A stretch of DNA of 42,263 nucleotides from a virus. This document shows, one piece after another, positions 1 through 29,735 of the stretch. Below the pieces are notes generated by a model. The model searched no databases and was not told where the DNA came from. It saw only the letters and a list, made by a program, of their open reading frames with translations. Location of the stretch: the IMG/VR virus record IMGVR_UViG_3300022701_000060, positions 1 through 42,263 of that record; one strand, 5' to 3'. The position numbers and the translations under genes are program-made. Each line of letters begins with the position of its first letter. Within the stretch, counting starts at the first letter, position 1.

Positions 1-550
1 CATATCCTTTTTCCACCATAGTCAGGCTTTGTCCATGAAATTGAAAACCTGTAGGTAAATAGTTAGGGTCAAAATGGTTTACATCCTCCTCTCCAATAAC
101 CCAGTTCTTTCCATCCTTCTTATGATTTTCGTAGGAAATGTAGTGGTCCATCCCAAGGATATATACAGGAGTACATCCCATAAAATATGCTAATTGTAGG
201 GCGACATTTGTAACTGAGTGTCCTTGCCACATAGGTTTGGTGGTATCCTTTGTGAACTTTGGAACATTTCCTGTCCACCGCATTCGTATCCCATTTTTAA
301 TTCTATTACAGAACTTTGCCTTAACAACTAAAGCTTCTATTTCTTCTTTGAATTGGTCAATAATTAGCTCATCAATCAGAACAAGGTAAGCATTAGAGAT
401 ATCTAATCCCCTGTCTTTCAGGATATAACCCCTATTTAAAAGAAATATAACCTCTTCGTTTAATTTTTCAACCTCCACATCATTTAAACTTAAGCCATTA
501 CAAAGAATAAATGCTCTTTTATTTTTATGTATGTCTTTAAATTTATTCAC
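1..550 (-). CDS. DUF115 / GT42-like glycan protein (3' end outside window)
   Basis: Open reading frame of 183 codons that runs off the left edge. It starts at a GTG (548-550) that overlaps the stop of the next upstream gene. The N-terminus carries an ILCNGLSL nucleotide-binding-like loop, followed later by WQGHSVTNVAL and GCTPVYILGMDHY, which resemble the DUF115 / 6-hydroxymethylpterin-kinase-like and sialyltransferase (GT42) superfamily. Members of these families act in surface glycan synthesis, and GT42 enzymes transfer sialic acid from CMP-sialic acid. Next to NeuA- and NeuB-like genes, a role in transferring the nonulosonic sugar is plausible but inferred. The family is fairly likely; the exact substrate is unknown. 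Confidence 0.6.
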   Translation of the reverse strand, partial: MNKFKDIHKNKRAFILCNGLSLNDVEVEKLNEEVIFLLNRGYILKDRGLDISNAYLVLIDELIIDQFKEEIEALVVKAKFCNRIKNGIRMRWTGNVPKFTKDTTKPMWQGHSVTNVALQLAYFMGCTPVYILGMDHYISYENHKKDGKNWVIGEEDVNHFDPNYLPTGFQFHGQSLTMVEKGY

Positions 551-1112
551 TTTGCATTACCACATAAGAATTTTTTATTAACACAGGTATCCAACCAATA
601 GTACAAAAAGCATCCTTACATGCCATAACAACAGCAGGTTCTCTCAGGTTATAATCATCAAAAACAATATATCGTCTTACCCTTGTACAAAGATTTTCCC
701 AATCACGTGAAGGATTGTCATATCTGTGGTCTCCATCAATGTACCCACTAACAAACTCAAGTCCCCGAAGTCTTTCTGGAAATGGGTGTGAACGTTCCTT
801 TACTACTACTATTCTATGAGACAATCCAAACTTTCTAGCAGAATCTTTTATTCCCCTAGGTTGTGGGTCTACACAGTAAATCTTTCCATCAAGTTTATAG
901 TGTTCTTTAGTAAAAGCACAAATAAGTGCAGATGCTCCATAAAGAGACCCTATCTCAATATGGTTTCCATGTCCAGCCTTACGTATAACTTGTGATAATA
1001 TCTGAGCTTCCTGTAATCCCTGTCTAACACAGTTTTTTCCAAGACGTTCTTTCATTCTCTGATAGTATCCAGTAATTAGGTAATCATTTGTTAGTTCAAA
1101 AAGATGAGTCAT
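543..1112 (-). CDS. Class I SAM-dependent methyltransferase (Methyltransf_24-like)
   Basis: 189 aa from the ATG at 1110-1112, whose ATGA overlaps the stop of the upstream phosphatase gene. A TTG three codons upstream is an alternative start. A glycine-containing SAM loop IEIGSLYGAS follows about 50 residues from the start, then a YCVDP acidic strand end, and a DGDH...FDDY segment typical of the Methyltransf_24 group, in which these acidic and histidine residues often bind a metal. Such enzymes O-methylate sugars or small molecules. Its position inside the sugar cassette suggests sugar methylation, but the substrate is not shown by sequence. Confidence 0.7.
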   Translation of the reverse strand: MTHLFELTNDYLITGYYQRMKERLGKNCVRQGLQEAQILSQVIRKAGHGNHIEIGSLYGASALICAFTKEHYKLDGKIYCVDPQPRGIKDSARKFGLSHRIVVVKERSHPFPERLRGLEFVSGYIDGDHRYDNPSRDWENLCTRVRRYIVFDDYNLREPAVVMACKDAFCTIGWIPVLIKNSYVVMQSE

Positions 1113-1603
1113 ATAATCCAAACCAATCCATTAGGCTGTTTCATCTTTGTAATTTCTTGTGGAGAAAGCCGTAGTAAATTTCCCACTATCATTTTATTTA
1201 CAGTTTCATGAGCAACAATCAAAACATCTTTCTCTGTAGGGATATCTAACAGAAATTCATAAACTCTTTTGTAAACATCTTCATAGGATTCTCCACCATA
1301 AAAAGGAACATTCCAAAGATGGTGAAAACCTCCTGCCATTTTTCCTTCACTTTTACCAAAATGCATCTCCATTAGTCTATCATCAAAGTTTACCTCATCA
1401 AGACCAATTCTCATAATCCTTAAAGTATCTACAACCCTTCCTAAAGGACTTGCATATATAACTTCAGGGTCTAGTTTAACAACCATATCACCTAGAACAG
1501 TGGCTTGTGTAATCCCCTTCTCTGTCAAAGGACTATCTTGTTGTCCCTGTCTAAGTTTCTTTATATTCCATTCTGTTTCACCATGTCTAGCTATTATTAT
1601 CAT
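1109..1603 (-). CDS. Histidine phosphatase family protein (phosphoglycerate mutase-like)
   Basis: 164 aa, ATG start preceded by GGAGAGGATTAC. It shows the branch-defining RHGETEWN motif at residues 6-13 (phospho-accepting histidine H7), a YASPLGR arginine segment, a glutamate in LMEMHFG and the second histidine in VAHETV near residue 132, so the active site looks complete. Family members remove phosphate from sugars and other small molecules. Gene neighbours make and activate a nonulosonic sugar. Dephosphorylation of a nonulosonate-9-phosphate is an attractive role but is inference. The start overlaps the cytidylyltransferase stop by 17 bases. Confidence 0.85.
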   Translation of the reverse strand: MIIIARHGETEWNIKKLRQGQQDSPLTEKGITQATVLGDMVVKLDPEVIYASPLGRVVDTLRIMRIGLDEVNFDDRLMEMHFGKSEGKMAGGFHHLWNVPFYGGESYEDVYKRVYEFLLDIPTEKDVLIVAHETVNKMIVGNLLRLSPQEITKMKQPNGLVWII

Positions 1604-2240
1604 GTAATCCTCTCCACACTATCTCTGCAAATCCAAAATCCTCTATTGTATTTATATCAATTGCTTCTATTTTTGAAAGTTCCAAACCAAATACAGGAAA
1701 GTTTGTTCTCTTTTTACTTTCTAAAATACTCTTTGTATGACTTGCATATAATCCTGTAGTTTCAATAAGCGTTGGTGGTAACTCAAAACTATTTAATAAA
1801 GGCTCTTCTGTAGGAAAATCTTTAAAAAGAAATTGTCTTTCTTTCCTAATACCAACTACAGAGTTGTAAGCATAGTCATTTTCTAAAATAGAAACTGCTT
1901 TCTTTAGTGTATCAGTAGTAATAAAAGGACTAGTTGGTACTATCTGAACACAAATATCTGACTCAGAAAAATTACGGGCTTGCCAATATGCTAAATCATC
2001 TCCAGTAAAATCATTGGTTGCTTGATGCTTTTCCCGCTTTAAATGTTTAGTTGCACCATTAAGATATCCTATTGCTATTATCTTATCAGAATCGCTGTCT
2101 ATAACTATCTCATCAAACAAACCAGACTTAGAAGAAGTTACAAGAACATGTGCAACCAGAGGCAGGTTTCCCAACTTCTTTATATTTTTTTCTGGAAGTC
2201 TAGTACTATGTTCCTTTGCATGGATAAAAGCTATATTCAT
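1587..2240 (-). CDS. Acylneuraminate cytidylyltransferase-like (NeuA/PseF family)
   Basis: 217 aa. ATG preceded by GGAGATAAA, with ATGA overlap to the upstream NeuB-like gene. The N-terminal IHAKEHSTRLPEKNIKKLG segment matches the nucleotide-binding signature of CMP-sugar synthetases (A-R-x-x-S-x-R-L-P-x-K-N), with a serine before TRLP. DEIVIDSDSDKI and VQIVPTSPF are further family landmarks. The enzyme joins CTP with a nonulosonic acid (Neu5Ac, pseudaminic, legionaminic or related) to give the CMP-activated donor. The size fits the single catalytic domain. Which sugar is used cannot be decided from sequence. Confidence 0.85.
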   Translation of the reverse strand: MNIAFIHAKEHSTRLPEKNIKKLGNLPLVAHVLVTSSKSGLFDEIVIDSDSDKIIAIGYLNGATKHLKREKHQATNDFTGDDLAYWQARNFSESDICVQIVPTSPFITTDTLKKAVSILENDYAYNSVVGIRKERQFLFKDFPTEEPLLNSFELPPTLIETTGLYASHTKSILESKKRTNFPVFGLELSKIEAIDINTIEDFGFAEIVWRGLHDNNS

Positions 2241-3112
2241 TTTATCTCCGACTTAGTTCCCAAGAAATCCTTTCCATATACCTTATCAACTAAAAACTTT
2301 TTCTCTAATTTAGACATTCCAAAGTCTGTATAGTATCCCTCTATGGGAATTCTTTTAAGATATCTTACATCCATTACCATTGACTTAAATTCATGTGGTT
2401 CTAGGGCTGTTTCTAGGTGGTGTACAAATCCTGTTCTACTAAGAGTAAAGTGTCTTTCTATAATGTCAGCACCAAACATGTAAGCCATAAGAGAAGGCAT
2501 GTATCCTATCTCATGTCCAGAATATCCGATAACAACATCAGGATTATCTTTAAACATTTCTACCAAGAAAATAATATTTCCTAGTCTAATATTTTCAGGC
2601 TTGCATGGATACTCAGCAACACAGTGTTGAACATAAATTTTCTTAAATCCTTGTAAAGAATCTACTGCTTGTCTAATTTCTTCTTCTGTGGAACCAGCTA
2701 CAGAGATTACAATCTCTTTATCTTTTGGGATTTTAGAAACAATTGTATCTATAAAGTGCCAGTTTCTAGCATTAGTAGAAGCAATCTTATACATTGGCAA
2801 ATCATACTTTAACATAAAGTCTAAAGATGCTTCATCCTGTACAGTAACAAACCAAGGCAAAGGACAATGCTTATCAAAGATATCCCACTGTTCTTCATCC
2901 CACTCAAACATCTTTCTATATTCATAATAAGTATGTCCATAAGGACTATCAAACTGTGTCGATAACTTTTCACCAGAGTAAAAGTTCTCTACGTCTTTCT
3001 TCTGCATCTTAATATGGGTAGCACCAGCTTCGTTAGCTTTCTTAGCCATTTCTATTGCTACATTGAGATTACCCATATGGTTTGTAGTAAATTCAGCAAC
3101 AAACTTTACCAT
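2237..3112 (-). CDS. N-acetylneuraminate synthase family protein (NeuB-like, no SAF domain)
   Basis: 291 aa. The TIM-barrel core is recognisable: EFTTNHMGNL near the N-terminus, then ATHIKMQKKD, and late YSGHEIGY and IERHFTLSR. These are the usual NeuB landmarks for condensing phosphoenolpyruvate with a hexosamine or its 6-phosphate. Bacterial NeuB is normally about 340 residues with a C-terminal antifreeze-like SAF domain. That domain is missing, because the protein ends shortly after the barrel. It lies in an overlapping operon with the CMP-sugar synthetase. Product identity (sialic, legionaminic or pseudaminic type) is undetermined. Confidence 0.85.
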   Translation of the reverse strand: MVKFVAEFTTNHMGNLNVAIEMAKKANEAGATHIKMQKKDVENFYSGEKLSTQFDSPYGHTYYEYRKMFEWDEEQWDIFDKHCPLPWFVTVQDEASLDFMLKYDLPMYKIASTNARNWHFIDTIVSKIPKDKEIVISVAGSTEEEIRQAVDSLQGFKKIYVQHCVAEYPCKPENIRLGNIIFLVEMFKDNPDVVIGYSGHEIGYMPSLMAYMFGADIIERHFTLSRTGFVHHLETALEPHEFKSMVMDVRYLKRIPIEGYYTDFGMSKLEKKFLVDKVYGKDFLGTKSEIK

Positions 3113-3738
3113 CTTCCAAGCTCCTTGTAAATTTCATGTGCCTTTTTTCCATCAAATATTTGCTTTCTGATGTGATTCTCTTTCAAAAGTCTAGAGCTTG
3201 CATGTCTAAAAGCATCCTCTATCCACTCTTCTTTTACAAAAAGAACTGCATCCTCATCAGCAAAAATAGAATCGTCTTGTGTAATCTCTATTCCATTATA
3301 TTCAACAGGCTCTCCATATGACTTTATATTCCACATATCATAGGCATCTACACAGGTGTAACCTCCAGCAAAAGTTGGAAAACTACAGTCTAGCATTCCA
3401 GAATCTCTGGTTCTTCCAGTAATAATAGCACCTAAACAGCATTTATTAGCAAGAAACCTGCTTGTTATATCCCCAAAGGTAGCAACCTTATCTGTTCCAG
3501 ATTTCATAAAATAAATGCTAGCGTATCTAAAATCTTTTAGCATATCATTTACTTTCTCTAAATCAAGCTGTTCGGCTTCCATTCCCTCAACTGGATATAC
3601 TCTACCAAAGATAGGAATACCATAGTTATTTAGACAGGGAAAGTTTTTTGAGTCTCCCAAAAGAAATTCAGAATATTGTAATCCCATATCAAAATGTAGT
3701 GCATCACTCATAACGCCAGTATATAATAAGTTACTCAT
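3106..3738 (-). CDS. RraA / HMG-aldolase family-like protein
   Basis: 210 aa, start preceded by AAGGAG at about 10 nt. The central block resembles the RraA fold: TFGDITSRFLANKCCLGAII followed by TGRTRDSGML with the conserved Arg-Asp, then FAGGYTCVDAYD and the closing DDSIFADEDAVLFV. Members include the RNase E regulator RraA and metal-dependent HMG/CHA aldolases or oxaloacetate decarboxylases. In a cluster with NeuB (which uses phosphoenolpyruvate) and NeuA, an aldolase or lyase on a keto-acid sugar is a possible role, but this is a guess. Seven bases separate its upstream overlap from the glycosyltransferase stop, so the genes are cotranslated. Confidence 0.65.
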   Translation of the reverse strand: MSNLLYTGVMSDALHFDMGLQYSEFLLGDSKNFPCLNNYGIPIFGRVYPVEGMEAEQLDLEKVNDMLKDFRYASIYFMKSGTDKVATFGDITSRFLANKCCLGAIITGRTRDSGMLDCSFPTFAGGYTCVDAYDMWNIKSYGEPVEYNGIEITQDDSIFADEDAVLFVKEEWIEDAFRHASSRLLKENHIRKQIFDGKKAHEIYKELGRW

Positions 3739-4672
3739 AGTTTTTAAGCTCCTTTACAAAGTTGTCTATACTAGCTACAGTCCATGCTTGCTTTCTTTTT
3801 GATTGGACATTTGGAACATTCCAAGAATTTAAAGCTTTGAAAGCAGTACTTCTTACTTTTGGTAAATCAAAATATACAGGCTCTATCCCAAATTCTGGAA
3901 ATAGATATTTTGTAACACCATATGTATTTGATGACAAGGCAAAACACCCATGATATAAAGCCTCATATATATTTCTACCAGCAGTTAGTCTATATGATAC
4001 ATCAATAAATACTTTACTTCTATCAAGTAAATCATGAAATACCTTTACAGAAGAGGGGTCAAATTTAGTATTTTTTATAAGTTCAAAAGAAACAGAGTCT
4101 TTATATAAATCATAGGTACTTTTACCTATAACAATACACTTAACTTTGTGTTCTGAACTTAAAGATTCTAATAATTTAAGGGTAAGGGAGGCATTTCTAG
4201 AGCCAGTGTCCACCAGTCCTAAGAAATCTATGTCTCTATCCTCTCCTATCCTACATTCCATAGACCTATCATACATCCTCAATGGAATCCTTTTCACGTT
4301 TTCTGAGAAACAATTATATTCTAAAGGAATTTCCCACACAAATTTATTAGAAACTTCCTCCAATCTAGGAATTACCCAAGGAGTTTTAGTGCCTAGGTCT
4401 ATAGACTCTAGTCTATTTAAATGCTGGTCAGCATCAAACTCTACCCAAAAACTGTGTGCTACCTTAGCAATATCTTCATAGTACTTGGTCCAGACGCTCT
4501 TCCACTTTTCCTTCCAACAGATATGGAAATAGACATCTTTACCTTTCCAATAGCTAATAGGCTTTTTCTCAGCTTGAATATACCCAAGTCTTAAGTCAAG
4601 CCTATTAGCTATTAATCCAGCGGGATAAAATTCATTCCCTTTTTTATTCTTAGTTATTCCTATCCAGCCCAT
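3731..4672 (-). CDS. GT-B fold glycosyltransferase (GT4-like C-terminal half)
   Basis: 313 aa. The C-terminal part has the nucleotide-sugar site of GT4-type enzymes: IDFLGLVDTGSRN, a VIGKSTYDLY strand, FHDLLDRSKVFIDVS, and AGRNIYEALYHGCFALSSN, the E-x-x-x-x-G helix-turn that holds the donor diphosphate. The N-terminal half is diverged, starting MGWIGITK. It is the most upstream gene of the left sugar cassette. Donor and acceptor are unknown. The large C-terminal motif makes the family assignment fairly safe. Confidence 0.7.
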   Translation of the reverse strand: MGWIGITKNKKGNEFYPAGLIANRLDLRLGYIQAEKKPISYWKGKDVYFHICWKEKWKSVWTKYYEDIAKVAHSFWVEFDADQHLNRLESIDLGTKTPWVIPRLEEVSNKFVWEIPLEYNCFSENVKRIPLRMYDRSMECRIGEDRDIDFLGLVDTGSRNASLTLKLLESLSSEHKVKCIVIGKSTYDLYKDSVSFELIKNTKFDPSSVKVFHDLLDRSKVFIDVSYRLTAGRNIYEALYHGCFALSSNTYGVTKYLFPEFGIEPVYFDLPKVRSTAFKALNSWNVPNVQSKRKQAWTVASIDNFVKELKNYE

Positions 4673-4858: not shown

Positions 4859-5463
4859 CTAATATAGCCAATATAGATAGTATAGTCTTATAGGTTTTTC
4901 TTCAGTTTCTCTAACTAAAATACCATCATAGTATTTAGTTATAATGTCCTTCCAATTCATTCCCTCTTTAGCATCGTCATAAGAGTCCCACTGCCCCATA
5001 CAGTTTTCCTCTTGTTCCCTTCCTAAACAGGTTGCGTATCTATCGTCATAATAAGTTCTTACTATTTTCTTATCATGAAGTAGTACCCAGTCCCAAGTAT
5101 CATCTACTGCTTTATCTGTAGACTCTGTTCTCCATTCTGGTCTGTATACTTGGTCCCAGTTACAATCCCAAACATAGCCATAAGTCTCGTACATACTCCA
5201 TCCATACATTTTTACTGCTATTGCTCCAGCTTTTAAGGATTCTTGATTCCAGTTATTTCCCCATTCAGCGGGTAAAACTCCTTTCACATACTCCTTAAAA
5301 TCCATAATGGTACGAGAATATGGGATTCCATTGTAGCAAGCACCTTCTCTCGTTACTAAAACTACTATTGTCTCTGGCGGTTTTGGAATTTCGCCTAAAA
5401 GTTCCGTTCCTATGACCGAAAAAGTGTCACCACAATAAGAATCAATGTTATCGGTGTATTCAT
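4859..5463 (-). CDS. SpoIID/LytB-domain protein, apparently frameshifted after the signal peptide
   Basis: The frame ending at 4859 encodes a SpoIID/LytB-like domain: DFKEYVKGVLPAEWG, then ESLKAGAIAVKMYGW and the region around QVYRPEW and AVDDTWDWV. SpoIID-family proteins act on peptidoglycan or its denuded strands. The first ATG in this frame (5303-5305) is too late: similar sequence continues upstream in frame through PPETIVVLVTREGACYNG, but no ATG, GTG or TTG exists back to an upstream stop. In the next frame an ATG at 5461-5463 encodes MNTPITLILIVVTLF, a perfect signal-peptide start, which stops at 5410. One extra T in the T5 run (A5 at 5419-5423 on the plus strand) would join both. The AAAGGAG site lies 15 nt upstream of that ATG, which is long. 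Confidence 0.7.
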
Positions 5464-5692: not shown

Positions 5693-5730
5693 AAGTCTCT
5701 CCTTACCTAAGTCTAATAAAACATCCCCAG

Positions 5731-5813
5731 TGCTAGCGGTGAGAGTCGAACTCACATGGGTTACCCCGTTGGGTCTTAAGTCCAATGCGTCTGCCTAATT
5801 TCGCCACGCTAGC
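5731..5813 (-). tRNA. tRNA-Leu (anticodon UAA)
   Basis: Seven-base acceptor stem (GCTAGCG with CGCTAGC), Leu-type D arm, anticodon loop CTTAAGA giving UAA (reads UUA), a long variable arm (CGGGGTAACCC region) as expected for class II leucine tRNA, and T arm with loop TTCGACT. The anticodon stem has one A-C mismatch beside the loop. No CCA is encoded. First of four clustered tRNA genes. Confidence 0.9.
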
Positions 5814-5817
5814 ATAG

Positions 5818-5892
5818 TGCTACTAACTGGAGTCGAACCAGTAAACAGCTTGTTTTGAGCAAGCTAGGTATGCCTATTCCCGTCATAGTAGC
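5818..5892 (-). tRNA. tRNA-Leu-like (anticodon CAA) with short variable loop
   Basis: Acceptor GCTACTA pairs with TAGTAGC, anticodon stem GCTTG/CAAGC with loop CTCAAAA giving CAA (reads UUG), T stem ACTGG/CCAGT with loop TTCGACT. The variable region is only five bases (TGTTT), whereas leucine tRNAs normally carry a long variable arm, and the D stem has a C-C mismatch. The D loop resembles the Leu type. The gene is recognisable, but the amino-acid identity and functionality deserve care. Confidence 0.75.
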
Positions 5893-5895
5893 TTG

Positions 5896-6020
5896 TGGGG
5901 AGAGTATGATTCGAACATACGCCTTTCTATTATCAGTAGATAACCCTTATCCATTCGACCCGCTAGTCAGGTAAATAAGCGGAAAGGATGTTTAACGCTC
6001 TGCCACTGAGCTATCTCCCC
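5896..6020 (-). tRNA. tRNA-Ile (GAU) interrupted by about 53 bases
   Basis: The two ends form one tRNA: acceptor GGGGAGA with TCTCCCC (7 bp), D arm GCTC AGTGGCAG AGC at the 5' side, and at the 3' side anticodon arm with loop CTGATAA (anticodon GAU), short variable region and T arm GTATG TTCGAAT CATAC. Between position 26 and the anticodon stem lies an extra segment (about 5943-5995) containing a CCGCT/AGCGG hairpin. This is not the usual intron position (37/38). It may be an intron-like insertion, a tRNA chimera or a pseudogene. Confidence 0.7.
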
Positions 6021-6024
6021 AAGG

Positions 6025-6107
6025 TGCTCTCAACAGGAATCGAACCTGTATGCCGTGAGGCACTACGTCCTAAGCGTAGCGTGTCTGCCTAATTCCACCA
6101 TGAGAGC
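6025..6107 (-). tRNA. tRNA-Leu (anticodon UAG)
   Basis: Acceptor GCTCTCA with TGAGAGC, anticodon stem CTACG/CGTAG with loop CTTAGGA giving UAG (reads CUA), long variable arm (TGCCTCACGGCAT), and T arm with loop TTCGATT. The 3' end is followed by encoded ACC rather than full CCA. First transcribed of the four tRNA genes. Confidence 0.92.
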
Positions 6108-6150
6108 AAATGTAGGGGAATCTCACCCCTACTTATTTTATTCTATTGTC

Positions 6151-6354
6151 CTACCAATTGAGAATTTCTGAATCATCTTCCCAAATTGTAGGTAAATCTT
6201 CTTTATCTGTGTAGATACTTACTTCCTCGTAATCAATGAAGTGTCTACATTGAGGACATCTAAGACTTCTTCTCTCTACCTCTTTAAAGTGTACTTCTTC
6301 CTCATAACCACAATGACTACAGTAGAGATTTACAAAATCTCCAGACCTCTGCAT
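6151..6354 (-). CDS. Zinc-ribbon protein, 67 aa
   Basis: ATG preceded by AAGGAGATATAGAA. Two CxxC pairs (CSHCG near residue 12 and CPQCR near residue 33) form a rubredoxin-like zinc ribbon, followed by an acidic tail ending SEILNW. No specific family is recognised; such small phage ribbons often bind nucleic acid or host proteins. It is downstream of the holin-like gene and upstream of the tRNA cluster in the same transcript. Confidence 0.75.
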   Translation of the reverse strand: MQRSGDFVNLYCSHCGYEEEVHFKEVERRSLRCPQCRHFIDYEEVSIYTDKEDLPTIWEDDSEILNW

Positions 6355-6366
6355 TTCTATATCTCC

Positions 6367-6744
6367 TTAAGCTAAATACTCAGCTGCCGCTTCTCTAGCT
6401 GACTCACCATAAGAACTATCTTTGATAGATTGATATGCTGTTTGGTTAGAAAGCTGGTTAATAACAGACAGTAGGATTACAGCAAACCATTGAGGAATAT
6501 ACTGTTCTACGTTGTAATTAATCGCCAGTTGGGACGATGATGCGATACCAACAGCAATAACCATAGGAACAATTTTCTTTACCCATGAAGGGAAATTGTG
6601 CCATGCAACCCAGTTTTCTAACACACGTGCCTCAAGCTGACCAAACAGCCATTGAGCACCTGCTAGTGTACCAAAGAATGCCAGCACTTCAAGAAGTGAG
6701 CCAAATTGCTCTAGTACTGCTGAAAAAACCATTGAAAAATTCAT
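6367..6744 (-). CDS. Holin-like membrane protein, 125 aa
   Basis: The start is ATG 6742-6744 with AAAGGAG six bases ahead; a longer start seven codons upstream overlaps the promoter leader. There are hydrophobic segments around LLEVLAFFGTLAGAQWLFG, IVPMVIAVGIASSS and WFAVILLSVINQL, then a charged C-terminus rich in alanine and glutamate. Size, two to three spans and first position after a strong promoter fit a phage holin, which makes pores for endolysin release. No recognisable endolysin adjoins it. Function is inferred from topology only. Confidence 0.55.
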   Translation of the reverse strand: MNFSMVFSAVLEQFGSLLEVLAFFGTLAGAQWLFGQLEARVLENWVAWHNFPSWVKKIVPMVIAVGIASSSQLAINYNVEQYIPQWFAVILLSVINQLSNQTAYQSIKDSSYGESAREAAAEYLA

Positions 6745-6763
6745 TTTAATCTCCTTTATTTGC

Positions 6764-6793
6764 ATTATACCACAAAAGGTATAATCTTGTCAA
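6764..6793 (-). promoter_or_regulatory. Sigma-70-type promoter with extended -10
   Basis: Reading leftward: TTGACA (6788-6793), 18-base spacer ending TGTGG, TATAAT (6764-6769). It lies 20 bases before the holin-like start. Shares the stretch CCTTTTGTGGTATAATG with the promoter at 18436. Confidence 0.85.
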
Positions 6794-6796
6794 GTA

Positions 6797-7606
6797 CTAA
6801 ATGTAGGGAATTTCTCCCGTTTTACCAGTATATTCCCTATTTACTATCCCATTATACACATTTTGATAAGGTTTTAATGCTTCATAACACTCATCATCAA
6901 ACCAATGTACATGGTCTCCTACCACTCCTTTCCTTCTCCATAAATCATCTCTTTTTTCCTGACCTGCTTTTCTTCCTGACCTATTTTTAAAGCTGTGTAC
7001 ATCCACATAATCCTGAATTAGCTGTTGTCTAGGAATTCCCTGACCTTTAAAAAGTGTCCTTAAAACTGTTTGAATTTCTCCTGCGGTATCTTTTTTCAAC
7101 CACTCATAAGTAGTCCAAACATAGTTAAAATTAGTTGAAGGATAAAAGTTACTAAAAGTACTATAGAAAGGAAGCATTAAATCACTTACCTGTCTGGTAT
7201 GTGAATGTAAAAATGCCCTATCTTCTAATGCAGTAACCTTGACAGCCTCTTCATCTGTTTTAACTTTCTTCTGTGGAAATTCTTGATATGTATGATGGTA
7301 TCTATTATGAAAAGCAAGTGATACAGTTCTATCATACGGATTACGAACTACTCCTAAAATCCCATAATCCTTTAAATCATATGCTTTAAGAAACCTGTCT
7401 AAAGCAATTGCTCCAACTCCATGAAATTTAGGAATTCTTCCCGCTTTCAGGTGTTCTTTAACAATTCCTAATACCGAATTGATACTCCCATCATAAAACC
7501 TACGTCCATCTATTTCAGGGGAAACTCCTTTTCCAAGAAGGTCGGCAAAAAGATAGTGCATCCACCTTGACCCAACCCTCTGTTCCGAGGTAATAATTAA
7601 ATTCAT
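6797..7606 (-). CDS. Sulfotransferase-family protein
   Basis: 269 aa from ATG 7604-7606, which forms ATGA with the kinase stop and is preceded by GAGGAG. The N-terminus (IITSEQRVGSRWMHYLF) resembles the 5'-phosphosulfate loop that binds the PAPS donor, and VVRNPYDRTVS matches the 3'-phosphate-binding motif R-N-P-x-x-R-x-x-S. Cytosolic-type sulfotransferases move sulfate from PAPS to hydroxyls or amines of glycans and small molecules. The acceptor is unknown. A role together with the left sugar cassette in decorating a glycan is inference. Confidence 0.75.
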   Translation of the reverse strand: MNLIITSEQRVGSRWMHYLFADLLGKGVSPEIDGRRFYDGSINSVLGIVKEHLKAGRIPKFHGVGAIALDRFLKAYDLKDYGILGVVRNPYDRTVSLAFHNRYHHTYQEFPQKKVKTDEEAVKVTALEDRAFLHSHTRQVSDLMLPFYSTFSNFYPSTNFNYVWTTYEWLKKDTAGEIQTVLRTLFKGQGIPRQQLIQDYVDVHSFKNRSGRKAGQEKRDDLWRRKGVVGDHVHWFDDECYEALKPYQNVYNGIVNREYTGKTGEIPYI

Positions 7607-8160
7607 AAAATCTCCTCTAACATTTGCCATGCCTTTTTAGGTAATTCTTCCTTTGTTCCGTTGTTATCAAATCTATAGTCATAGTAATCTGGAGTACGTG
7701 GTGAAATAGGAAGAGCTTTCTCTGAAATGTGGTCAGAAATTACTTCAGAATCCCTAAAAACTCTAATCCTGTAAATCTTTTCAATTAGAGGCTTATCTGT
7801 CCAAATCTCATATTCATTTGGGAATCTCCAATCATCAAAGATTAAAATATTAGGAGGAACTGTATCAAAGACATTATCATTATATGCCATCTCAGCCCAA
7901 ATATTTGGATTGTATGCTCTTCCAGCATCAGTTCCAACTACCTGAAGTAATCTTCTTCCCTTCTTATCCTTTTTTCCATCCCAACCAAATGCTTCTGTTG
8001 CTACCTTTTTAACACCATGAGCAAATCCAGAAATACGGATAAGTGCTTTAGGAAACAATTCTTGCAGTTGCTTTTCTAACTCTAAGGCAACTGTACTCTT
8101 TCCAGCTTCAATACGTCCAGCTATAAGAAAAACCTTAATTCTTCCAAGTTCCCAATCCAA
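7603..8160 (-). CDS. Deoxynucleoside monophosphate kinase (T4 gp1-like)
   Basis: P-loop GRIEAGKST lies very near the N-terminus, followed by a YNPNIWAEM segment and the LIFDDWRFPNE acidic strand typical of phage dNMP kinases, which phosphorylate dNMPs to feed phage DNA synthesis. The longer frame back to 8298 overlaps the upstream gene by more than 160 bases, so that start is unlikely. The only nearby canonical start is TTG 8158-8160. Where homologues would begin Met-Lys, this gene has ATT-AAG at 8134-8139, overlapping the upstream stop, so an ATT start (178 aa) is possible. Neither has a strong ribosome site. Confidence 0.75.
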   Translation of the reverse strand: MDWELGRIKVFLIAGRIEAGKSTVALELEKQLQELFPKALIRISGFAHGVKKVATEAFGWDGKKDKKGRRLLQVVGTDAGRAYNPNIWAEMAYNDNVFDTVPPNILIFDDWRFPNEYEIWTDKPLIEKIYRIRVFRDSEVISDHISEKALPISPRTPDYYDYRFDNNGTKEELPKKAWQMLEEIL

Positions 8161-8500
8161 TAAATCTGTCCGAGCGTACTGACTTGACTTCTGATTCGTC
8201 AACTCGTTCAAGTTTAGAAACGATGGTTGTAGTAGCTTCTGGCTCTTCTTCTCTTGATTCAATAACTTCCCGTTCACTATCATCTTGGTCATATCCACTT
8301 TCCTTTTCCCACTCCTTTAAATTAGCATCATTACATCTAATGCACAAGTCATCTATATGTTCTAATGCCTCTGTCTTATCTTTTAATAGATATAGGAAAC
8401 TCCAATCATCTCCTATTGTACGTCCACATAAAGTCTTTTCTCTATCATAGGTAAGATGAATAGTTTTTCCAGTCTTACTTTTAACTCTCCAAATGTTCAT
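8135..8500 (-). CDS. Hypothetical acidic protein with cysteine motif, 121 aa
   Basis: Starts at ATG 8498-8500 after GGAGTATTTG. The N-terminal half (IWRVKSKTGKTIHLTYDREK, TLCGRTIG, then LCIRC) contains three cysteines and a histidine that could bind zinc. The C-terminal half is highly charged and glutamate-rich, probably disordered. It is encoded downstream of the DNA methyltransferase (20-base overlap) and upstream of the kinase. No family is recognised. Confidence 0.65.
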   Translation of the reverse strand: MNIWRVKSKTGKTIHLTYDREKTLCGRTIGDDWSFLYLLKDKTEALEHIDDLCIRCNDANLKEWEKESGYDQDDSEREVIESREEEPEATTTIVSKLERVDESEVKSVRSDRFIGLGTWKN

Positions 8501-21100: not shown

Positions 21101-21793
21101 TTGGCACGTTCAAAGGAAAGTTTAAGAAACTTATATCAGTATAAAGATTTAACTGATGAAGAATTTGAAGAGGTTTGGCAAGAAAGACAGGAAAGAGAAG
21201 CTAGAATGTCTCCACAGAAAGAGGAGTTAGAATCTAGAATTGATGCAATGGTCGAGGATTTCAGAGAAGACTATGCTCTGAATGACCTGAAGTTCAATGA
21301 TATGCAAGACCTTCGGGCATTGATTAGAGCTATTCTTGCTTTAAAAGATTATGAAGATACTCTTTATGAGATACAGAAAGACGGTATTGGTACTGAAAAT
21401 ATCAGAATTATTGGGGATTTAAATAAGTTTATTTCCCAAACTAGAAAAGATATTACTAATCTACAGGAATCTTTAAAGATTAGTAGGAAGGTTCGTAAAG
21501 AAGAAAGGGAAGATTCTATAGAAGCTTATATTCTGAATTTGCAAGATAAAGCAAATACATTTTATAAGCATAAGGTATTCAAGGCAGTATGTCCAGAATG
21601 CGGAATGATGTTGTTTGATGGATGGTTTCTATATCCTGAAGAAGACAATAAGATTACTCTGGAATGTGGGAGAATGATTGAGGATATGGAAGACGATTCT
21701 GCTAGAAAGTGTACTGGAAGGCTGGAAATAACATCGAAGGAACTCAAAGAAAAACAAAAAGAATATAAAGAATTATTTCCAGAGGGACTCTAA
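21101..21793 (+). CDS. Putative small terminase subunit with zinc ribbon
   Basis: 230 aa, TTG start after ATAGGAGGAAATC. Immediately upstream of the large terminase, where the small subunit is expected. The middle is helical (ALIRAILALKDYEDTLYEI, then TNLQESLKIS) and a C-terminal part holds CPECG and a second, spaced cysteine pair (LECGRM, RKCTG). Small terminases recognise packaging sites and control the motor. The identification rests on position and length; no diagnostic HTH is clear. Confidence 0.55.
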   Translation: MARSKESLRNLYQYKDLTDEEFEEVWQERQEREARMSPQKEELESRIDAMVEDFREDYALNDLKFNDMQDLRALIRAILALKDYEDTLYEIQKDGIGTENIRIIGDLNKFISQTRKDITNLQESLKISRKVRKEEREDSIEAYILNLQDKANTFYKHKVFKAVCPECGMMLFDGWFLYPEEDNKITLECGRMIEDMEDDSARKCTGRLEITSKELKEKQKEYKELFPEGL

Positions 21794-28562: not shown

Positions 28563-29735
28563 ATGAAAGGGCTTTTTATTTGTGATGGTGTGACACCCAC
28601 AGGATTTTCTAGGGTAGCACACGGGATTATTGAAAACCTGCCTGAAGATTGGGACATTCACCATTTAGCCATAAACTATCATGGTGACCCGCATAACTAC
28701 AAGCACAATATTTATCCAGCCATGTTGGGTGGAGACTTATGGGGTTTCAATAGAATTAAAGAATTTAAAGATAAGAACGTAGATTTTATCTTTATACTAA
28801 ATGATGTTTGGATTATATCTGAATATCTGAAAGTTTTTAAAGATGTCTACAAGGGGGAAGAAGATAAGATTCCTCCTATTATAGTTTATTATCCTGTAGA
28901 TGGAACAAATTTCTTACCAAGCTATTTTCAAAATTTTGACATTGTAAGTCAAGCTGTAGTATATACAGAGTTTGGAAAGCAGGTGAGTAAGCAAGCGGCT
29001 CCTGAAATTGATTTTGAAATCATACCACATGGAACTGACCTAGAGACCTTCTACCCATTAGGAGATAAACTAGAGACTCGAAAACAATACTTTGATAAAA
29101 ATCCTGAACTTTGGGATGCATTTATTGTTTTGAATCTAAATAGAAACCAGCCTAGAAAGAGACTTGATGTCGCTTTAGAGGGATTTGCAGAGTTTGCAGA
29201 GGGTAAACCAGACAATGTAAAGTATTACCATCATGCTGGTATTAAAGATACTGGATGGAATATTTTAGAATTATCACAAATGTTAGGAATTCAAAATAGA
29301 ATTATCCTAACAAATACAGTTAGAGAGAATCAAAGAGTTTCTATTGAAGAACTCAATATGATTTATAACTGTTCAGATGTTGGGATTAATACCTCAACAG
29401 GAGAGGGATGGGGACTCTGTTCGACAGAGGGTGCTGCTTGTGGTATACCACAAATTGTCCCTGACCACAGTGCCTGTACGGAGTTATTTACAGATATAGG
29501 TATTCTTGTACCTATTAACCAATATCTTTGGAGTCCTGAAACACTGGTTCGTGGAGGATTAGTCCATCCAGCAGATGTTGCAGAGGCTTTGGAAATTCTT
29601 TATAGCAATAGAGAATTAAGGGAAATGTTGGGAAGAGAAAGCTACAAGAAATTCACATCTAAAGAATATACCTGGAAAGGTATAGCTAAACAGTGGCAGA
29701 AGATTTTTGAAAGATATGGCAATAACATTTCCTAG
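28563..29735 (+). CDS. GT4-type glycosyltransferase inside the virion operon
   Basis: 390 aa, ATG after GGAAAGGAAC. N-terminal MKGLFICDGVTPTGFSRVA is a glycosyltransferase B-fold start. The C-terminal domain has VLNLNRNQPRKRLDVAL, then NTSTGEGWGLCSTEG and AACGIPQIVPDHSA (the E-x7-E donor site region). Two neighbouring structural genes enclose it tightly, so it is coexpressed with head and neck proteins. It may glycosylate a virion protein or host surface sugar (inference). The overlap with the next gene is 20 bases. Confidence 0.8.
   Translation: MKGLFICDGVTPTGFSRVAHGIIENLPEDWDIHHLAINYHGDPHNYKHNIYPAMLGGDLWGFNRIKEFKDKNVDFIFILNDVWIISEYLKVFKDVYKGEEDKIPPIIVYYPVDGTNFLPSYFQNFDIVSQAVVYTEFGKQVSKQAAPEIDFEIIPHGTDLETFYPLGDKLETRKQYFDKNPELWDAFIVLNLNRNQPRKRLDVALEGFAEFAEGKPDNVKYYHHAGIKDTGWNILELSQMLGIQNRIILTNTVRENQRVSIEELNMIYNCSDVGINTSTGEGWGLCSTEGAACGIPQIVPDHSACTELFTDIGILVPINQYLWSPETLVRGGLVHPADVAEALEILYSNRELREMLGRESYKKFTSKEYTWKGIAKQWQKIFERYGNNIS

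Follow-up and report, generated by a model that had tools for sequence, protein, structure and literature searches.

RraA-type proteins have mostly been described as aldolases of catabolism or as regulators of RNase. One of two catalytic motifs is present in most homologues of HMG/CHA aldolase and RraA, which are likely class II pyruvate aldolases (PMC5065237), and one RraA-family enzyme dehydrates and decarboxylates a 2-keto-3-deoxy sugar acid (PMC8563752). In the sialic acid synthase NeuB of Neisseria meningitidis, Arg314 is the sole residue of the SAF domain in the active site, and the R314A variant is inactive (PMC6795526). Genes for both protein types, RraA-like and NeuB-like, lie next to each other in IMG/VR record IMGVR_UViG_3300022701_000060, a linear viral fragment of 42,263 bp that was analyzed in its entirety (hereafter, the window) and is a tailed phage, a virus of bacteria, with genes for DNA polymerase, helicase, terminase, portal and tape-measure proteins. 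An earlier reading of the sequence (the original prediction) had described a cassette for a sialic-acid-like sugar at its left end. Our analysis suggests that this operon probably encodes a self-contained pathway for a cytidine monophosphate (CMP)-activated ulosonic acid, one of the 2-keto-3-deoxy sugar acids to which sialic acid and Kdo belong, and that the sugar would be set on a virion protein.

The cassette consists of seven tightly packed minus-strand open reading frames (ORFs) at positions 2-4672, adjacent ORFs sharing an overlap of 4-17 bases. In the order of transcription they are:

3731..4672, minus strand, GT-B type glycosyltransferase, 313 aa (Pfam Glycos_transf_1, 7.7e-6, 26.0 bits versus a cut-off of 26.4)
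3106..3738, minus strand, RraA-like protein with class II aldolase fold, 210 aa (Pfam RraA-like, 5.3e-14, 53.1 versus 24.5 bits)
2237..3112, minus strand, NeuB-like, putative phosphoenolpyruvate (PEP)-dependent ulosonic acid synthase, 291 aa (Pfam NeuB, 3.2e-44, 151.6 versus 22.1 bits)
1587..2240, minus strand, predicted CMP-ulosonate cytidylyltransferase (PseF/NeuA-like), 217 aa (Pfam CTP_transf_3, 5.1e-16, 59.6 versus 22.6 bits)
1109..1603, minus strand, histidine phosphatase (branch 1), 164 aa, putative ulosonate-phosphate phosphatase (Pfam His_Phos_1, 3e-38)
543..1121, minus strand, S-adenosylmethionine-dependent O-methyltransferase-like protein, 192 aa, TTG start (Pfam Methyltransf_24, 1.4e-10)
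2..550, minus strand, GT42/Maf-like (DUF115, MptE-like) putative CMP-ulosonate transferase, at least 183 aa, running off the contig at base 1 (PF01973, 4e-8, 33.7 versus 34.6 bits for the incomplete protein)

The seven overlapping leftward genes of the original prediction were all recovered with the families assigned to them; five of the seven proteins scored over curated Pfam cut-offs, and Glycos_transf_1 and MptE-like/DUF115 fell narrowly under theirs. Its view that synthesis, activation and transfer are all represented also held, as judged by family and fold, in the form of a NeuB-like synthase, a CMP-sugar synthetase and a GT42/Maf-like transferase. The chemistry class predicted for the cassette (ulosonic acid synthesis, CMP activation and transfer) follows from these protein families.

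The NeuB-like synthase and its linkage to RraA

The structural model of the window NeuB (predicted local distance difference test score, pLDDT, 91.7) matched solved sialic acid synthases with Z scores of 29-31 and DAHP and KDO8P synthases with Z scores of about 20, the closest solved structure being 6ncs, also a short synthase. N. meningitidis NeuB was the reference for residue mapping, with the residue list of PMC6795526 supplemented by K53, S132, H236 and D247. The PEP-binding, metal and catalytic residues (E25, K53, Q55, K129, S132, Y186, S213, H215, E234 and H236 in meningococcal numbering) were all identical in the window NeuB, where they are E7, K35, Q37, K109, S112, Y168, S198, H200, E219 and H221. 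The protein stops at residue 291, about 35 residues past the barrel, without a SAF match, and has no counterpart of Arg314 because the SAF domain is absent.

Profile searches and active-site comparison, both proposed as checks by the original prediction, had mixed outcomes. Unrelated families were not indicated, but the equivalog cut-offs were missed: matches to the NCBIfam models for N-acetylneuraminic acid (Neu5Ac) synthase (TIGR03569, 134.2 bits versus a cut-off of 399.7) and pseudaminic acid (Pse) synthase (TIGR03586, 133.7 versus 340.3 bits) were significant and below threshold, as was that of the cytidylyltransferase to PseF (7.9e-24, 84.5 versus 205.7 bits). Likewise, the catalytic residues of NeuB were intact, but its acceptor-site signature differed. 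The window NeuB is, as far as its sequence can tell, a putative PEP-dependent synthase of the sialic-acid type and not a textbook enzyme.

Single-sequence scans of viral contigs with the window NeuB or RraA found no relative, and alignments were required. An alignment that included 35%-identical enterobacterial homologues retrieved several viral contigs and nine bacterial NeuB loci with 47-52% identity, including loci of Geminicoccaceae, other Alphaproteobacteria, Myxococcota, Eisenbacteria, Gastranaerophilales and Prochlorococcus. When about 200 loci were searched with profiles, RraA was identified in 21 besides the window, six of them bacterial and 15 on viral contigs, some of the latter being near-identical copies (L142, L143, L169 and L172). 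In all 21 loci RraA was located upstream of NeuB, usually overlapping or abutting, and a chance arrangement is excluded because the core genes adjoin each other in so many other loci. Furthermore, a phylogenetic tree of 186 NeuB sequences placed those linked to RraA in one clade of 22 (support 0.94), with RraA present in 19 of the 22 loci. Since pattern-based scans detect only relatives with short exact peptides in common, these counts probably underestimate how widely the module is distributed. Genes neighboring the NeuB genes on Methylomagnum and Hymenobacter plasmids were uninformative.

The suggestion that phages rarely carry such a set was borne out in part. NeuB homologues were common in viral contigs (490 stretches), but only two genuine NeuB matches were found among 50,697 deposited phage records, and NeuB-linked RraA, searched with three query proteins, had no match among the same records. 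A third NeuB match, H11 (FPLJ01000048.1, INPHARED), was rejected as a Moritella viscosa bacterial capsule contig with no phage gene annotated. No published description of NeuB, RraA and cytidylyltransferase together was found in the open-licence PMC literature.

The RraA-linked clade is also set apart by its residues. At the position of Asp247, which we take to be an acceptor-side residue of meningococcal NeuB, His was present in 22/22 clade members versus none of the 164 other homologues (132 with Asp, 24 with Phe); this His follows another His, forming the dyad H231-H232 in the window protein. The Phe112 position is occupied by Gln or His in the clade and by Trp, Leu or Phe in other homologues. 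This split tracks RraA linkage almost exactly, from which we infer that the clade uses a different acceptor sugar.

The window RraA contains the D-x20-R-D motif and a C-terminal Gly-Arg-Trp. The motif, that of class II pyruvate aldolases (first position D or E), was found in all 16 aligned NeuB-linked RraA proteins, as was the Gly-Arg-Trp C-terminus, which was absent from the end of three catabolic relatives checked. By analogy with the precedents in PMC5065237 and PMC8563752, it is plausible that RraA acts on a 2-keto acid in the cassette pathway. The original prediction had listed RraA and the phosphatase without a function; both belong to the core. In one viral contig (L132), a gene for a B12-binding radical SAM enzyme (5801-7336), possibly a methylase or another sugar modifier, is located directly before RraA.

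Partner enzymes and the position of the cassette

In the cytidylyltransferase, K9, R14, K18 and N19 of the N-terminal Lys/Arg signature were invariant. Gastranaerophilales homologues (L025, 3195-4580; L027, 9473-10867) are about 460 aa long, and their second domain appears by eye to be KdsB-like (Kdo cytidylyltransferase).

The RHG motif and the second catalytic His of the histidine phosphatase were conserved (R6, H7, G8, E79 and H132), and genes of this family adjoin NeuB (L025-L027 and L140-L142) or the cytidylyltransferase in several loci. Enterobacterial loci (E. coli-type) carry an inositol monophosphatase in its place; in L052 the second gene upstream of RraA is of HAD type; and the related phage G016 has, between NeuB and the transferase, a small gene that looks HAD-like by eye and has no Pfam match. 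Such replacement by non-homologous phosphatases argues for a real dephosphorylation step. Homologues of the methyltransferase (40-45% identity) and of the GT-B protein (36% identity) were found in the phage cassettes of L050 and L051.

A complete orthologue of the truncated last protein, with 50% identity, is encoded in L051, and its model (pLDDT 90.9) best matched Maf flagellin glycosyltransferase (Z 15.0), followed by the GT42 sialyltransferase CstII (12.5), MptE-type HPPK (12.4) and a second GT42 sialyltransferase, CstI (12.1), suggesting that the last cassette protein is a putative GT42/Maf-like CMP-ulosonate transferase. The module includes a GT42-like protein in the window, L050, L051 and L134, whereas enterobacterial loci, among others, have a homologous domain fused to the NeuB N-terminus (hhalign probability 97.4, E 1.3e-11). 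In L133 a gene for a GT29 sialyltransferase-family protein separates the cytidylyltransferase from RraA, and in L052 such a gene immediately precedes RraA. By their sequences, the transferase of the module is interchangeable, being either GT42/Maf-like or GT29-like.

Two further genes of the window may be concerned with sugars:

6797..7630, minus strand, sulfotransferase, possible accessory sugar modifier (Pfam Sulfotransfer_1, 3.8e-9)
28563..29735, plus strand, glycosyltransferase inside the head/tail module (phrog_2170, 1.9e-46)

A homologue of the sulfotransferase is located within the cassette region of G016. The glycosyltransferase has homologues in G009, G010 and G016 and, among the seven closest relatives by terminase, in five (L002, L003, L004, L006 and L008).

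The early region of the window (DNA polymerase, UvsX-like recombinase and DnaB-like helicase) is oriented leftward and the structural region (terminase, portal, head protein and tape measure) rightward. Three phages with a homologous backbone, G009, G010 and G016, carry the core cassette genes internally, between the homologue of the window gene at 21101-21793 and the large terminase gene (TerL). In the window these two genes adjoin (21793 / 21797), at a distance of 17 kb from the cassette. They adjoin likewise in the seven closest terminase relatives (79-88% identity), with no cassette at that site. A NeuB search of these contigs (L002-L008) was empty, but they are short and lack the cassette region, so that the search is uninformative on their complete genomes. 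Because the window NeuB branches at the base of a 17-member subclade, apart from G009 and G010, the cassette, as judged by sequence, was either relocated or acquired repeatedly in this lineage. Near residue 164, TerL itself is interrupted in frame by an intein-like insertion (about 1.2 to 2.2 kb) in four contigs of related phages (L005, 1870-4632; L006, 721-3483; L007, 1340-4102; L008, 5034-8831).

Several features were observed upstream of the cassette. Directly upstream, at 4859-5305, is a gene for a short protein with a SpoIID/LytB domain (2e-10), which may serve as a cofactor of a cell-wall enzyme. Three tRNA-Leu genes with anticodons TAA, CAA and TAG, a single-amino-acid tRNA set, are clustered at 5730-6107. 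A sigma-70 promoter with perfect consensus (TTGACA, 18 nt, and TG preceding TATAAT) is located on the minus strand at 6764-6793, just upstream of the gene at 6367-6765, pointing to the tRNA cluster and the cassette.

The proposed pathway and its alternatives

In the proposed pathway, the SAF-less NeuB would condense PEP with an aldose, probably a sugar phosphate; the histidine phosphatase would remove the phosphate; the cytidylyltransferase would form the CMP-sugar; and the GT42/Maf-like transferase would move the activated sugar onto its acceptor. The methyltransferase, the GT-B protein and perhaps the nearby sulfotransferase might extend or cap the transferred sugar, and RraA might supply the acceptor of the synthase or edit its product. 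The sugar is most likely something other than Neu5Ac, legionaminic acid or Pse. As the target, a virion protein that would be glycosylated in the cytosol is favored because genes for export or anchoring are absent, the enzyme with the nearest fold acts directly on protein, three phages have the cassette amid packaging genes, and the structural module contains a conserved glycosyltransferase.

Several observations weigh against this proposal. The NeuB, PseI and PseF equivalog cut-offs were missed widely, so that substrate specificity is not readable from sequence, and nothing in the sequence indicates the acceptor. Three clade members (L019, L020 and L023) lack RraA, which is therefore not strictly required, and no recognized phosphatase was found in the cassettes of L050 and L051. 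The last cassette gene is incomplete in the window, and the MptE pyrophosphokinase has the same fold as its product. Identity of this gene with an MptE pyrophosphokinase was considered, as the fold fits, but is disfavored because the gene is linked to CMP-sugar genes, the domain occurs fused to NeuB, and Maf scored higher.

Alternatively, the cassette might be a canonical nonulosonic acid cassette that borrows host N-acetylmannosamine or a legionaminic/pseudaminic precursor to make an ordinary sugar of this class, with RraA and the phosphatase as accessories. NeuB and the cytidylyltransferase do score best against NeuB/PseI and PseF profiles, the PEP and metal residues of NeuB are conserved, and the solved structure of another SAF-less NeuB-type protein, 6ncs, is annotated as a sialic acid synthase. 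However, a residue whose loss inactivates the meningococcal enzyme (Arg314; PMC6795526) is missing along with SAF, the replacements at Asp247 (His) and Phe112 (Gln/His) extend across the clade, and a free-sugar substrate would need no phosphatase. Moreover, no 2-epimerase, dehydratase, aminotransferase, acetyltransferase or other hexosamine-modifying enzyme was found in the cassette by ORF and Pfam analysis, the contig being a fragment whose data end at base 1. We consider this explanation unlikely, and the nonulosonic (C9) acid named as the product by the original prediction is not established, given the SAF-less NeuB, its different acceptor site, the lack of hexosamine-modifying enzymes and the presence of RraA and a phosphatase in the core.

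The main rival for the target is that the same chemistry acts on host surface glycans during infection, excluding other phages or masking the cell. The bacterial relatives L011 and L026 are located in surface-polysaccharide loci with ABC exporters and glycosyltransferases, and GT42 enzymes act on surface glycans. This possibility deserves attention but is rather doubtful, since ORF and Pfam analysis found no flippase, exporter or membrane anchor within the cassette, the closest fold, Maf, modifies protein in the cytosol, and the cassette is found among packaging genes in the three related phages. Modification of phage DNA with a sugar acid is very improbable: a deoxynucleoside monophosphate kinase gene, of a type also carried by modified-base phages, is present at 7603-8298, but no nucleotide hydroxymethylase or thymidine-modifying gene was recognized among the scanned proteins, and CMP-ulosonate transferases are known to act on glycans or proteins. 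More improbable still is a chimeric assembly in which a bacterial polysaccharide locus was joined to the end of a phage contig. The terminal position of the cassette and its lack at the terminase site in close relatives would be consistent with such an artifact, but G009, G010 and G016 have the same backbone with the core genes at an internal site beside the terminase, and the G+C content of the cassette (0.34) is that of the remaining contig.

The proposal of a virion-directed ulosonic acid pathway may be extended, tentatively, to a new ulosonic acid, activated with CMP, that would be common to tailed phages and bacteria of several phyla. Its synthesis would depend on RraA and on a SAF-less synthase of the HH type, and phages would decorate their virion proteins with it via a Maf/GT42-type cytosolic transferase; we regard this wider reading as possible, with less confidence than the pathway itself. 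If the product differs from known nonulosonic acids, it would represent a new class of sialic-acid-like sugar, and RraA-type proteins would gain a biosynthetic role. Phages would then also carry a single module, differently placed in related genomes, by which an acidic sugar is synthesized, activated and transferred. A sialylation-like virion coating would bear on adsorption, immune recognition and phage defence.

Comparison with known systems

The window NeuB shares with the NeuB/PseI/LegI family (PF03102; N. meningitidis NeuB, 1XUU; Campylobacter jejuni PseI, 8H2C) the TIM-barrel (Z 29-31) and the PEP, metal and catalytic residues. It differs from this family in lacking SAF and Arg314, in having His for Asp247, Gln for Phe112 and Pro at the Asn74 position, and in its own C-terminal segment, FGMSxxExxFL, and RraA linkage. 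The cassette RraA matches the HMG/CHA aldolase and RraA-like family (PF03737) and has its D-x20-R-D motif, but is distinguished by the NeuB linkage and the invariant C-terminal Gly-Arg-Trp.

The putative transferase resembles Maf (5MU5) and GT42 (CstII, 1RO8) in its catalytic-domain fold, in a G-P-S nucleotide-loop motif present in most members and in its linkage to a CMP-sugar synthetase, whereas it is a single small domain of about 220 aa and phage-borne. Enterobacterial capsule loci (plasmids of E. coli S1-ZIM-01-A and Enterobacter RHBSTW-00002) encode a SAF-less NeuB with 35% identity and the same functional set, including a cytidylyltransferase and an inositol monophosphatase; in contrast to the window, these loci have the GT42-like-NeuB fusion, a residue other than His at position 247 and no RraA that was found.

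The Kdo and KDN pathways are alike in logic, as they start from a sugar phosphate and PEP, proceed via a phosphorylated intermediate and a phosphatase, and activate the sugar with CMP. The barrel of KDO8P synthase is more distant (Z 19.8 versus 31), and the substrate of the SAF-less, RraA-linked NeuB would, like that of the Kdo pathway, presumably be phosphorylated.

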